A stretch of 29,533 nt of DNA from a virus, in IMG/VR virus record IMGVR_UViG_3300024346_000365, positions 1 to 29,533 of that record. One strand, given 5' to 3'. Shown here one piece after another: positions 14,291-29,485 of the stretch (positions are counted from its first letter, which is position 1; each line of letters opens with the position of its first letter). Below the pieces are notes generated by a model. That model saw only the letters and a list, made by a program, of their open reading frames with translations. It was not told the DNA's origin and searched no databases. The position numbers and the translations under genes are program-made.

Positions 14291-14319
14291 TTGACAAGGG
14301 CCCCAAACTGTGATATAAT
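14291..14319 (+). promoter_or_regulatory. Sigma70-type early promoter driving candidate ncRNA 1
   Basis: TTGACA (14291-14296), 17 bp, TGATATAAT with TATAAT at 14314-14319; transcription is expected to start near 14326. No protein gene begins within 400 nt downstream. Confidence 0.9.
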
Positions 14320-14325
14320 ATACTT

Positions 14326-14757
14326 ATATTGAGGGAAACACCCCCGTCGGTAAGAGAAAGTAGAACTCGCGGTTCTACACACCGAGGAGATAGTTTGCAC
14401 GAGATGACGACATTATCGATCGTTCAGAGGCAAGATTAAAGGTGGACAAACCCGTACGGTAGCTTAAGGAAGACCGATCTAGGAATAGATGTAATCACAC
14501 GGGTACAGAACGAATCAATATAGACTGAGGCGAGCTCGGGTATGAAGAAACGCTTGATACCATAGTGGGAGAGAAACCCCGCAGTCGGAAAGGGATAGGC
14601 TATTAGGTTTGCGCCTTATAGCGACACAAGAACTTAGCGGTTCAGGATCTTTTATCTTTAGGAAATTCAGGAGGCTTAATTGCTACCCCTGCTTCTAATA
14701 CTGATATTAACGAGTACGATATAAGTCCGAGGCCAGCCAGTCGCTCTATTTTATATT
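14326..14757 (+). ncRNA. Candidate structured non-coding RNA 1 (~430 nt)
   Basis: This stretch lacks any long reading frame yet has its own strong promoter and about 47% G+C by hand count, well above its surroundings. It is rich in exact local stems: TCGGT/ACCGA (14347-14351/14381-14385) enclosing TAGAAC/GTTCTA (14361-14366/14372-14377); ACCCGT/ACGGGT (14450-14455/14499-14504) enclosing CGGT/ACCG and ATCT/AGAT; GACTG/CAGTC (14523-14527/14582-14586) enclosing GGTAT/ATACC; CTATTAGG/CCTTATAG (14600-14607/14614-14621, one mismatch); and GAAC/GTTC (14630-14633/14640-14643). I recognise no tmRNA, RNase P, 6S or riboswitch signature. The 3' end is unclear, and the RNA may extend into the small gene at 14758. 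A 14-codon frame with a good ribosome site lies at 14680-14724. Confidence 0.7.
14680..14724 (+). CDS. Possible hydrophobic micro-peptide inside ncRNA 1 (14 codons)
   Basis: AGGAGG (14669-14674) lies 5 nt before a TTG that opens a frame reading MLPLLLILILTSTI and a TAA. The ribosome site is perfect, and the peptide is almost entirely hydrophobic, like a membrane peptide or a leader peptide. At 14 codons it could easily be chance, and the region is better explained as structured RNA. Confidence 0.2.
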   Translation: MLPLLLILILTSTI

Positions 14758-14928: not shown

Positions 14929-14957
14929 TTGACAAATACACTTTGATGTGTTATAAT
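14929..14957 (+). promoter_or_regulatory. Sigma70-type early promoter for bS21
   Basis: TTGACA (14929-14934), 17 bp, TGTTATAAT with TATAAT at 14952-14957. The bS21 ATG at 14965 is only 8 nt after the -10 box, so the mRNA should be leaderless or nearly so. Confidence 0.9.
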
Positions 14958-14964
14958 AATACCT

Positions 14965-15264
14965 ATGATATACAATAATAAAAACAAACTGATTAATGGT
15001 AGAACCGTTGATCTTAAGCCAGGGCCTAGACACCCTAAAGATAAAAGACCGCAAAGGGACATGCCTTTTGATATAGCACTTAGAAAATTTAGAAAACAGA
15101 TTGAAAAAGCTGGGATCGTAAAAGAACTAAGAGCTAGAGAATTTTATGAAAAGCCAACTGCAAAAAGAAAGCGCAAGAAGGCAGAAGCATGTAAGAGAGA
15201 AATGAAGAGAGTATCTTCAGAGTTCAGCCCTTATAATGCAAAAGGACAAAGACATTACAAATAA
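14965..15264 (+). CDS. rpsU: Ribosomal protein bS21 homologue
   Basis: Residues ~33-82 of this 99-aa protein match bS21: [18 protein letters not shown], then [18 protein letters not shown], close to the E. coli core ([19 protein letters not shown]). bS21 is a small 30S protein near the platform, by the anti-Shine-Dalgarno end of 16S rRNA, and supports initiation on natural mRNAs. Viral bS21 copies are known from marine phages, including a pelagiphage. Here there is a ~30-residue N-terminal extension and a ~17-residue C-terminal extension. The ATG sits at the predicted transcription start with no ribosome site. It lies between two candidate structured RNAs, suggesting a locus aimed at host translation. 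Confidence 0.93.
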
Positions 15265-15278
15265 ATGTTAAAAAAGGG

Positions 15279-15307
15279 TTGACAAACCCTTTCTAATGTG
15301 ATATAAT
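15279..15307 (+). promoter_or_regulatory. Sigma70-type early promoter driving candidate ncRNA 2
   Basis: TTGACA (15279-15284), 17 bp, TGATATAAT with TATAAT at 15302-15307; the start is expected near 15314, just before the first helix of the RNA. Confidence 0.9.
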
Positions 15308-15313
15308 AGTTTT

Positions 15314-15498
15314 ATAGGTTGGTGGGTAAAACCATGACGGCGAGATGGAATCACGGAGTTAATAGCTCTACCATTTAAGACCCACGACGGATATACTGCC
15401 TTCGGGAGCAACACCCTTACTACCGATACGTCTCCACGGAGAGTACCATACTGAGTAGGAACGGAACGCCAAAGAAGCGACCACCAACCACCTTTTTT
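15314..15498 (+). ncRNA. Candidate structured non-coding RNA 2 (~185 nt) with intrinsic terminator
   Basis: GGTTGGTGG (15317-15325) pairs perfectly over 9 bp with CCACCAACC (15481-15489), closing the whole element, and T6 (15493-15498) follows. Inside are AGATGG/CCATTT (15343-15348/15371-15376), GGAG/CTCT (15355-15358/15366-15369), a C-TTCG-G tetraloop (15400-15405), and CTTACT/AGTAGG (15416-15421/15454-15459) enclosing TCTC/GAGA (15431-15434/15439-15442). G+C is about 52% by hand count in an AT-rich genome. A competing pair GTGGGT/ACCCAC (15322-15327/15380-15385) uses bases of the closing helix, so two alternative states are possible. No known RNA class is recognised. A 14-codon frame starts at ATG 15334 but is probably incidental. 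Confidence 0.8.
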
Positions 15499-15512
15499 AT
15501 TATGGAGTTTTT

Positions 15513-21366: not shown

Positions 21367-21739
21367 CGTAATTAATTTCCCAAGATTTATTTCAGATGCG
21401 CCAAGGACGGCTGAAGAAGTAAAAGAGAATCTTCAAATGTATAAGGAATCTTATGCTAATGACTTAGCTGAGATCATATGGGAAAACGTCCTATCAGAAA
21501 TGGCTAGAGCAAACTGTGATTTTGACGAAGACATCAATAAGTATTTTCCAAATATGATATTGATCTTTGAAGCGATCAAAGCTTTACACCTACAAACTCT
21601 AGGCGCATCTCATCCTTTACAAGAATTTGCACTAAAAAATGTGGCTATACTTGAGACAGATGAAGATGGAACAACGACTGGTGGGCTTAAAAGTACATTA
21701 TTAGATGAATTAGGGGTTGACAAAGACGAAGATTTGTGA
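21344..21739 (+). CDS. Conserved phage protein of unknown function, 131 aa
   Basis: GTG 21344 is 9 nt after AAGGA and overlaps the glycosyltransferase stop by 23 nt. The product begins with a polar segment (VINFPRFISDAPRTAEEV), followed by long helices. A QTLGASHPLQEFALKNV segment recalls a small conserved protein of marine T4-like phages that I cannot name. The C-terminus is acidic (DELGVDKDEDL). The TGA stop is part of the extended -10 box of the promoter for the RNase H gene, and the -35 box lies in the last codons. This couples the two genes physically. Confidence 0.75.
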   Translation: MDKEKPSNVINFPRFISDAPRTAEEVKENLQMYKESYANDLAEIIWENVLSEMARANCDFDEDINKYFPNMILIFEAIKALHLQTLGASHPLQEFALKNVAILETDEDGTTTGGLKSTLLDELGVDKDEDL

Positions 21740-21745
21740 TATAAT
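21717..21745 (+). promoter_or_regulatory. Sigma70-type early promoter for RNase H
   Basis: TTGACA (21717-21722), 17 bp, TGATATAAT with TATAAT at 21740-21745. The whole -35 box and spacer are coding, and the TGn of the extended -10 is the upstream stop codon. Confidence 0.9.
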
Positions 21746-21776: not shown

Positions 21777-22634
21777 ATGATATTACTAGACTACAATCAA
21801 GTAATGATGGCATCTCTCTTCGCGAGTATTGGCAATCATCACAACGTTGAACCCGACGAAAACCTACTTCGTCATATGTTCTTAAACTCAGTTCGTTTCA
21901 ATCGTAAAAAGTTTCACAAAGAATACGGCGAGATCGTACTCTGCTGTGATAACCCAAACGTTTGGAGACGAGACTACTTCCCCTACTACAAAGCTAATCG
22001 TAAAAAAGGTCGTGATGCTTCTGATATGGATTGGAATAAACTCTTTGAGTGCATTCACCGTATTAGAGCAGAGATCGAAGAATTCTTTCCTTACAAAGTT
22101 ATTAGTATAGAGCGATGCGAGGCAGACGATATTATCGCTACTCTTGTACATGAACATGGCACCATTATGAACACAGGTGCTGAAAAGATATTAATACTAT
22201 CTGGTGACAAAGACTTCATTCAATTACAAACTTATGGTAACGTGGACCAATATAATCCCGTTATGAAGAAGTGGGTAAGACATGACAACCCAGATAAATA
22301 CCTTGAGGAACATGTGTTAAGAGGCGATGTCGGTGACGGTATTCCAAACGTACTTAGTCCTGATAACTGCCTAGCTGTTGGTACAAGACAAAAGCCAATG
22401 ACTAAGAAAAGAATTACACAGTTTCTTTCTGAGCCCGATACAATGGACGAAGAAACAAAACTTAGATTTAATCGAAATAAACAGATGATTGACTTGAGTC
22501 AAATACCATCTGAGTATGGAGATCAAATCTTAGAACAATATAACAATGCAAAAGAAGTTGGTCGACAGCATCTCTTTAACTTCTTTGTAAAGAAAAAGTT
22601 GAAAAACTTGATCACTGATATACAGGACTTTTAA
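21777..22634 (+). CDS. rnh: RNase H / 5'-3' exonuclease, T4 Rnh-like
   Basis: The 285-aa product aligns by eye with T4 RNase H (305 aa), a FEN-1-family 5' nuclease that removes RNA primers and flaps from lagging strands. Motifs: LLDYNQ (D5), RHMFLNSVRFN, CCDNPNVWRRDYFPYYKANR (D58), RCEADD (E115, D117, D118), SGDKDF (D144, D146) and RGDVGDGIPN (D184, D187). The final HLFNFFVKKKLKNL segment matches the T4 C-terminus. A 4-codon frame (ATG 21766) ends on the start ATG (ATGA), which may tune initiation. With primase and ligase in this window it completes Okazaki fragment processing. Confidence 0.95.
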   Translation: MILLDYNQVMMASLFASIGNHHNVEPDENLLRHMFLNSVRFNRKKFHKEYGEIVLCCDNPNVWRRDYFPYYKANRKKGRDASDMDWNKLFECIHRIRAEIEEFFPYKVISIERCEADDIIATLVHEHGTIMNTGAEKILILSGDKDFIQLQTYGNVDQYNPVMKKWVRHDNPDKYLEEHVLRGDVGDGIPNVLSPDNCLAVGTRQKPMTKKRITQFLSEPDTMDEETKLRFNRNKQMIDLSQIPSEYGDQILEQYNNAKEVGRQHLFNFFVKKKLKNLITDIQDF

Positions 22635-26759: not shown

Positions 26760-27075
26760 AGATATGGGTGTGTTCTTAGGAACATACGATGGGGAAGAGC
26801 TAGGCTATAAAGATGATGGCCGAATCTTTGCGTGTTTCTCAGCTAACAATCCTTTTAAGTTAACAACAGTTTGTTCGTTCAGAACAGAAAGAGCAGCTGA
26901 AGTTTTTAAGAAAGATATGTTCGGCGCAACCAAACGTGACAAGATGTATACTCTACCAGTTGAATCTGAAGATGAGTTTCCAAGTGTAGTTGATATAGTC
27001 AAAGCAGGACATACTGATGACTGTATTGATATGCTCGAGCTTCTTTTTGAAAGCGGAAATCAAACTATACATTAG
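26728..27075 (+). CDS. Conserved-looking phage protein of unknown function, 115 aa
   Basis: The ATG at 26728 lies inside the nuclease gene in another frame. The 115-aa product has an N-terminal strand (TRYILSCEDMGVFLGTYDG), a compact alpha/beta middle (FRTERAAEVFKKDMFG) and an acidic helical C-terminus (DDCIDMLELLFESG). No family or catalytic motif is recognised. The middle recalls small single-domain proteins in marine T4-like phages that read as display-type beta proteins with a RAREV-like helix. Its stop is 3 nt before the next promoter's -35 box. Confidence 0.7.
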   Translation: MKKTRYILSCEDMGVFLGTYDGEELGYKDDGRIFACFSANNPFKLTTVCSFRTERAAEVFKKDMFGATKRDKMYTLPVESEDEFPSVVDIVKAGHTDDCIDMLELLFESGNQTIH

Positions 27076-27078
27076 GGG

Positions 27079-27107
27079 TTGACAAACACATTAAAGTGTG
27101 TTATAAT
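27079..27107 (+). promoter_or_regulatory. Sigma70-type early promoter for the HD hydrolase
   Basis: TTGACA (27079-27084), 17 bp, TGTTATAAT with TATAAT at 27102-27107. The ATG at 27114 begins 7 nt after the -10 box, the expected start of transcription, so the mRNA is predicted to be leaderless. Confidence 0.9.
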
Positions 27108-27113
27108 ATTACA

Positions 27114-27638
27114 ATGATAGACAAAAAAGTAATTAACGACGCCTTGATGCTTGCAATAGAAGCTCATGGCGATCAGCGCAGAAAATACACAGGTGAGCCA
27201 TACATAACTCATCCAATACACGTAGCAAAAATTCTAGAAGATAGTGTTGAACATACTACTGAGATGTTGGCAGCTGCTATCCTACACGATGTTGTAGAAG
27301 ATACTCCTGTCACATTTAGAGACATCAAATCTCACTTCGGAACTGATATTGCTGAACTTGTTCATTACTGCACAAACGTTTCTGAAAAAGAAGATGGAAA
27401 CAGAACGTTTCGTAAAAAGATGGATGCCGATCATTTCGCTTTGGGACCACCCGCGTCTCAAACAATCAAGATCGCAGACCTACTATCGAACTCTGATACG
27501 ATTATACCCCACGATCAGAAGTTCTTTCACAAAGCCTATAAGCATGAGAAACAGTATATGTTGAACATTCTTACTAAGGCTGATCCTATATTGCTTGACA
27601 GAGCACAGACTATGCTGTCTGAACACTGGGAAGAGTAA
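27114..27638 (+). CDS. Small HD-domain alarmone (ppGpp) hydrolase-like protein
   Basis: The 174-aa product matches the stand-alone HD hydrolases of the SpoT/MESH1 type. Residues: H33 in YITHP, HD at H58-D59 followed by ED at E62-D63 (ILHDVVEDT), and D122 with N126 in IKIADLLSN. The KYTGEPYITHP and FGTDIAELV segments fit too. Length is close to MESH1 (~180 aa), with no synthetase or TGS/ACT domain. It would remove the 3'-diphosphate of (p)ppGpp, damping a starvation response, although some relatives hydrolyse NADPH or other nucleotides. Start ATG 27114; an upstream ATG 27096 lies within the promoter. No leader or ribosome site is present. Confidence 0.87.
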   Translation: MIDKKVINDALMLAIEAHGDQRRKYTGEPYITHPIHVAKILEDSVEHTTEMLAAAILHDVVEDTPVTFRDIKSHFGTDIAELVHYCTNVSEKEDGNRTFRKKMDADHFALGPPASQTIKIADLLSNSDTIIPHDQKFFHKAYKHEKQYMLNILTKADPILLDRAQTMLSEHWEE

Positions 27639-28528: not shown

Positions 28529-29485
28529 ATGGCACATGCATTAGAAATGGTAAACGGTGAAGCTCAAATGGCTTACAGACTTAGCAAAGGGGTGCCTTGG
28601 CACGGCCTTGGAGTTCCTGTGAGTGACGACATGACACCAACTGAAATGATGAAGGCGGCTGGTCTAGACTGGAAAGTCAAAAAAGTACCATCCTTTGTCG
28701 ATCACAATGGCGAACAAATCCCAACAGGTCAGCAATCTCTTATACGAGAAACTGATGGTAAAATCCTTACCAATGTTGGTGGTAACTGGAACCCTTGCCA
28801 AAATGAAACAGCATTTGATTTCTTCAATGATTTCGTTAAAGCTGGTGACATGGTAATGGACACGGCTGGTTCAATCAACGATGGTAAAATGGTATTTGCT
28901 GCTGCTGATGTACAAGATGGATTCACACTTTTTGGTGGTGATGAAGTTAAAGGCTACTTACTTTTCTCTAATCCTCACCAGTATGGTAAGTGTATTGATG
29001 TTAAGTTTGTTATGACTCGTGTTGTATGTAATAACACTTTGTCAATGGCTCTAACTGAAAAATCACAACCTGCTGTAAGGCTATCACACAGAAACGAGTT
29101 TGACGCTTCAGTAGTTAAAGAACTACTTGGTATCTCACACACTCGTGTACAACAGTTTAAAGAAGCTGCAGAGTTTCTTGGATCTAAGCAATACAAAAAT
29201 GCTGACTTCGAAAGATTCCTTGCTAAAGTATTTGGTGCATCTTCTCAAGAACACAAAATCCTTAGTCGAACTGGAGAACGTGCGTTAGAGATTGTAGAGA
29301 CACAACCTGGAGCTAACTTCAAGCCTGGATCTTGGTGGAATGCTTTCAACGCTGTCACATACATGACAGACCACGAACTTGGAAGAAGCGATGACGCAAG
29401 AGCATCATCTTCTTTATTCGGTGCTAACTCAAGGAAAAAGCTAGACGCTCTTGACCTTGCTGTTGAAATGGCGGAGACTGCGTAA
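28529..29485 (+). CDS. DUF932 (phage/plasmid-like TIGR03299) protein
   Basis: The 318-aa product fits DUF932: WHGLGVPVSDDMTPTEMMKA near the N-terminus, the middle VGGNWNPCQNETAFDFFNDF, then MDTAGSINDGKMVFAAADV and the core RVVCNNTLSMAL. The later SWWNAFNAVTYMTDHELGR segment completes the family pattern. DUF932 proteins occur on phages and plasmids; their biochemical role is unknown, with antirestriction or replication-associated ideas suggested from context only. AGGAGA lies 6 nt before the ATG and a repeat-type early promoter precedes it. A hairpin (29473-29494) contains its stop codon. Confidence 0.88.
   Translation: MAHALEMVNGEAQMAYRLSKGVPWHGLGVPVSDDMTPTEMMKAAGLDWKVKKVPSFVDHNGEQIPTGQQSLIRETDGKILTNVGGNWNPCQNETAFDFFNDFVKAGDMVMDTAGSINDGKMVFAAADVQDGFTLFGGDEVKGYLLFSNPHQYGKCIDVKFVMTRVVCNNTLSMALTEKSQPAVRLSHRNEFDASVVKELLGISHTRVQQFKEAAEFLGSKQYKNADFERFLAKVFGASSQEHKILSRTGERALEIVETQPGANFKPGSWWNAFNAVTYMTDHELGRSDDARASSSLFGANSRKKLDALDLAVEMAETA

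Follow-up and report, generated by a model that had tools for sequence, protein, structure and literature searches.

A fragment of an aquatic virus (29.5 kb, from IMG/VR), hereafter the window (the whole stretch that was analyzed; positions below are window positions), carries a gene for a small alarmone hydrolase (SAH) whose mRNA is predicted to be leaderless. It is well supported that the gene encodes an ordinary phage SAH with an unusual expression layout, conserved and gene-specific, in which a consensus sigma-70 promoter abuts the start codon. As judged from sequence, this leaderless layout is a property of the phage group, shared only with the phage gene for ribosomal protein bS21. In the reading that we favor, with a probability of roughly 0.7, the SAH gene is transcribed early from a sigma-70 promoter into a leaderless mRNA, and its expression under (p)ppGpp would restore host growth. 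Phage SAHs and leaderless mRNAs are already known separately; no paper in the literature searched reports a leaderless layout that many phages conserve and that is confined to the genes of an alarmone hydrolase and a ribosomal protein.

Family, motif, and predicted fold of the SAH

The SAH coding sequence (27114..27638, plus strand) begins with ATG, ends with a stop codon at 27636-27638, and encodes 174 amino acids forming a single HD hydrolase domain without a synthetase or regulatory domain. The protein matches Pfam HD_4 (E = 7e-17) and PHROG 990 (E = 6e-35). A further match covers the N-terminal region of TIGR00691, the RelA/SpoT model (E = 2.5e-25); it scores under the full-length cutoff of the model, as is to be expected when a domain stands alone. 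The best sequence matches in the PDB are Lmo0812, human and fly MESH1, and Rel hydrolase domains. Alignments with known hydrolases place their metal ligands and catalytic residues at H33, the first metal-ligand histidine (27210..27212, in PYITHP), at H58-D59 (27285-27290) and E62-D63 (27297-27302) of the HDVVED motif (27285..27302), and, in IADLLSN (27477..27491), at the last metal ligand D122 (27477-27479) and the conserved asparagine N126 (27489-27491), all encoded on the plus strand. These seven residues are identical throughout 31 aligned phage relatives and unchanged across nine divergent phage SAHs, the window SAH included. An AlphaFold model of the protein (pLDDT 93.9, pTM 0.90) is all-helical and superimposes on human MESH1 over 169 residues (Z = 23.9, root-mean-square deviation 2.0 Å) and on bacterial SAHs with Z of 19-22, whereas the next HD proteins reach only about 12.

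On family matches, motif, and predicted fold, it is thus well supported that the gene belongs to the SAH family of the MESH1/SpoT type. The initial annotation had proposed such a hydrolase with an intact HD/ED/D motif in a T4-like phage. The first two points agree with the data above, and the third is supported by a gp61-type primase and other T4-type replication genes, from which the assignment is made. The enzyme would be a single-domain, metal-dependent hydrolase that most likely takes the 3'-pyrophosphate off (p)ppGpp, and probably off (p)ppApp too. Two further matches, to PADLOC Specificity_I (E = 0.004) and to Pfam DUF4690, were judged to be noise.

The window SAH resembles MESH1/Mesh1-L, the Pseudomonas aeruginosa SAH 6yvc, Lmo0812, and XccSAH in its single HD domain, its metal-ligand and ED motif, and its fold, and is 25-28% identical to MESH1 in structural alignments. 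Unlike MESH1 and the bacterial SAHs, it is phage-encoded, has a predicted leaderless gene, and carries an invariant stretch of its own (DGNRxFRKKMDADHFA). PaSpo of Salmonella phage SSU5 (42% identity) and other phage SAHs of PHROG 990 are likewise stand-alone, share the catalytic residues, and are 35-44% identical to it.

A consensus promoter abuts the SAH start codon

The SAH promoter consists of a -35 hexamer TTGACA (27079..27084) and a -10 hexamer TATAAT (27102..27107), both on the plus strand and both matching the consensus, with a 17-nt spacer. The -10 hexamer ends 6 nt upstream of the ATG, and no Shine-Dalgarno (SD) motif is present. Counting 7 nt from the -10 puts the canonical +1 at 27114, the first base of the start codon, and under the pyrimidine-purine initiator rule it would be 27113; transcription is therefore predicted to start at 27113..27114 (plus strand), with a leader of 0-1 nt. 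The ATG lies 38 nt past the upstream stop codon (27073-27075), and the promoter occupies this gap. Twelve perfect TTGACA-17-TATAAT promoters are found on the plus strand of the window, and in one further promoter the spacer is 16 nt. The promoters of the window (e.g., 4232, 12174, and 28466) are unusually uniform, and many carry TGTGA or TGTGT before the -10. An inverted repeat in the spacer of the SAH promoter (AACACA-TTAAAG-TGTGTT, 27085-27102) was considered as an operator and dropped, as other clades do not retain it.

The layout is conserved among SAH relatives. Among 80 IMG/VR loci there are 49 distinct proteins, that of the window included, with 67-100% identity. In 42 of the 49, a sigma-70-like promoter lies upstream with 6-9 nt between its -10 and the ATG, and the layout is retained though spacers and synonymous sites have widely diverged. 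Among the leaderless SAH loci that match the promoter consensus at 11 or more of 12 positions (17 after dereplication), the -35 is invariant and the -10 nearly so, while most spacer columns vary. None of 28 leaderless SAH pairs has an SD-like motif.

We then compared this geometry with that of other genes, using 311 distinct promoter-gene pairs from the window, from every locus retrieved, and from relatives with large contigs; in this control set genes were called crudely by their first ATG, promoters were scored by their match to the consensus, and the loci do not count as independent. The -10-to-ATG distances have their main peak at 25-35 nt, and a second peak at 6-9 nt consists almost wholly of SAH and bS21 genes. 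After dereplication, a distance of 5-9 nt is seen in 30 of 34 SAH and bS21 pairs vs. 5 of 221 others (P = 1e-29, Fisher's exact test). Two of these five are bS21 genes missed by the filter, leaving about 3 in 220 true others. Since 42 of 49 SAH homologs share the geometry and it is this rare elsewhere, it is not a matter of chance. SD-like motifs are absent from all 44 leaderless SAH/bS21 cases and present in 153 of 206 leadered genes. The first codons of the leaderless genes are A-rich (63% vs. 43% A), and their 5' structure is slightly weaker. These results strongly support, as a prediction from conserved promoter geometry, that the SAH mRNA is leaderless.

The initial annotation had placed the SAH ATG at the expected transcription start, as in bS21, and had suggested that leaderless early mRNAs may be a theme of the phage. 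The placement agrees with the promoter positions in both genes, and the theme holds for these two; leaders of about 11-28 nt are predicted for the other promoter-driven genes of the window, and an SD-like motif precedes several of these. The idea that the phage uses leaderless mRNAs in general is rejected. Nor is leaderlessness a general trait of phage SAHs: in nine cultured phages examined, all SAH homologs have an SD-like motif upstream (read by eye) and none has a strong promoter abutting the ATG. A layout of 6-7 nt was also noticed in a HAD-like protein gene (MIRFQEYLEEKKGSKGLTIFDIDDT) and in MNIFILDNDPIKAAQSQCDKHVVKM; these two genes lie near position 119818 of contig G001 (minus strand, loci L144-L150) and at position 50734 of contig G002.

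The SAH start codon

A leader would exist if translation began not at M1 but at M12 (27147), which is invariant in the 31 relatives; the mRNA would then have an ordinary leader of about 33 nt. We regard this as highly improbable. Within codons 5-11, purifying selection acts in frame, with a nonsynonymous-to-synonymous ratio of 0.32 vs. 0.84 and 2.2 in the other frames, whereas the upstream stretch shows no such selection (pS 0.64, pN 0.59). In the AlphaFold model, helix 1 comprises residues 4-18, and a start at M12 would cut it. No SD-like motif precedes M12 in the sequences inspected, and the -10 lies a steady 6-9 nt from the first ATG but differs by up to 9 nt in its distance to M12. Because codons 5-11 are selected in frame and helix 1 begins at residue 4, M1 and not M12 is taken as the start of the predicted protein, and the M12 start is rejected. 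A GTG at 27096 was also rejected, since it falls inside the promoter, lacks an SD motif, and occurs only in near-identical copies (loci L002-L005).

The phage bS21 gene

The second gene with the leaderless layout encodes a bS21 of 99 amino acids (14965..15264, plus strand). Its perfect promoter (14929..14957, plus strand) has a -10 ending 7 nt before the ATG. Among its closer relatives (L088-L119), the -10-to-ATG distance is 6-9 nt wherever a promoter was found, and in more distant relatives (L120-L123) it is 31-32 nt. The protein has a conserved N-terminal extension (RHPKDKR region) that precedes the bS21 core. Other phages also encode bS21, including pelagiphage HTVC008M and Bacteroidetes phages (PMC6375957, PMC9723584). 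The bS21 of the Bacteroidetes phages is expressed late with structural genes, whereas that of the window has its own sigma-70-like promoter and the leaderless layout. The nearest bS21 among the genomes scanned is betaproteobacterial (Burkholderiales), which is suggestive only as a hint to the host.

Proposed expression under (p)ppGpp

Leaderless mRNAs bind directly to 70S ribosomes without SD pairing, and a review lists (p)ppGpp as an inhibitor of canonical and an activator of leaderless translation (PMC9031893); a possible boost of leaderless translation by (p)ppGpp via YchF is suggested in a second review (PMC10502375). In the mechanism that we propose, the host sigma-70 RNA polymerase would transcribe the SAH gene early from its own consensus promoter, giving an mRNA that begins at the AUG or 0-3 nt from it. 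Ribosomes would load this mRNA by the leaderless (70S) route and not by SD pairing. The SAH could thus still be made once (p)ppGpp has slowed ordinary initiation, and removal of the alarmone would restore host growth and translation capacity. Since (p)ppGpp reportedly favors leaderless translation, we infer that translation of a leaderless hydrolase gene can go on in the very state that the enzyme would end. A role of the SAH in keeping host growth going under starvation, as first proposed for this gene, is plausible. In its predicted 5' end the SAH mRNA resembles that of lambda cI, which has its start codon at or near the 5' end and no SD motif (PMC9031893); cI is a lysogenic repressor, whereas the SAH is predicted to be an early lytic enzyme with a layout conserved across many phages.

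The bS21 gene may belong to the same scheme. The protein supports SD-dependent initiation, and its own mRNA, if leaderless, should not require bS21-replete ribosomes. The two genes could then act as a feedback kit for translation repair in starved hosts, with the SAH preferentially made when (p)ppGpp is abundant and bS21 made by bS21-short ribosomes, an extension that we consider doubtful.

Several points weigh against expression under (p)ppGpp from a leaderless mRNA. Leaderless mRNAs are usually weakly translated in Escherichia coli. Seven of the 49 SAH relatives lack the layout, two having distances of 24 and 27 nt and five having no adjacent promoter, and many loci are near-duplicates, so that independent lineages are fewer than loci. 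The activation of leaderless translation by (p)ppGpp stands on a preprint cited by one of the reviews (PMC9031893). It is debated whether leaderless initiation expresses genes after (p)ppGpp has shut ordinary translation, and the MazF stress-ribosome model failed to reproduce in other laboratories (PMC9031893). The layout described here offers a natural test of this question, with a bearing on lytic phage growth in starved aquatic bacteria.

Alternative explanations

The conserved layout could be explained by compaction, if a promoter squeezed into a tiny intergenic gap yields a leaderless mRNA as a by-product without regulatory meaning. The 38 nt upstream of the SAH gene are indeed filled by the promoter, and some SAH relatives have no promoter there. 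However, the gene at 21777 starts 37 nt past the upstream stop codon (21739) and keeps a -10-to-ATG gap of 31 nt, its promoter (21717-21745) overlapping the upstream gene. As this gene keeps its gap despite nearly equal spacing, compaction as the sole cause is weakened; the scarcity of leaderless cases among other promoter-gene pairs (about 3 in 220) also speaks against it, and we hold it to be somewhat unlikely.

The substrate raises other possibilities. In a counter-defense role, the main substrate would be either tRNA with a pyrophosphate added to its CCA end or (p)ppApp, produced by anti-phage enzymes of the toxSAS/CapRel type, and the SAH would reverse the damage so that translation continues. 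The homologous PaSpo of SSU5 reverses tRNA pyrophosphorylation by toxSAS (PMC11559606), and many unrelated phages carry an SAH (284 records). On the other hand, a leaderless start is of no obvious help once tRNA charging is blocked. SAHs can be promiscuous (PMC9765508), so the alarmone and counter-defense roles are not exclusive. As the principal function counter-defense is a real if lesser possibility, and beside alarmone removal, action against toxSAS may be a serious parallel role. An NADPH 2'-phosphatase as the main activity, as in metazoan MESH1, would instead shift cofactor pools in infected cells. MESH1, its NADPH complex included, is the solved structure nearest in fold, but an orphan SAH of Xanthomonas is about 40-fold less efficient on NADPH than Mesh1 and hydrolyzes alarmones better than NADPH (PMC9765508), which makes this activity improbable as the main one. 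Hydrolysis of (p)ppGpp by an SAH made from a leaderless mRNA is the reading that we retain.

Other features of the window

No near DNA match to the window was found among cultured phages, and no tRNA or Rfam match was found within it. Downstream of the SAH gene, a DUF932 protein (28529-29485, E = 8e-35) has its own promoter with a leader. Just upstream of the bS21 gene, the region 14291-14757 has a perfect promoter and, after it, some 440 nt that lack a long open reading frame and begin TTGAGGGAAACACCCCC. This region has no Rfam match, and stretches in related phages are 73-99% identical to it; it is a candidate structured non-coding RNA. Directly downstream of bS21 (15279-15512), another perfect promoter precedes a conserved non-coding stretch of about 200 nt, which also lies beside bS21 in relatives and has no Rfam match; its consensus fold shows compensatory changes in 8 of 28 pairs.
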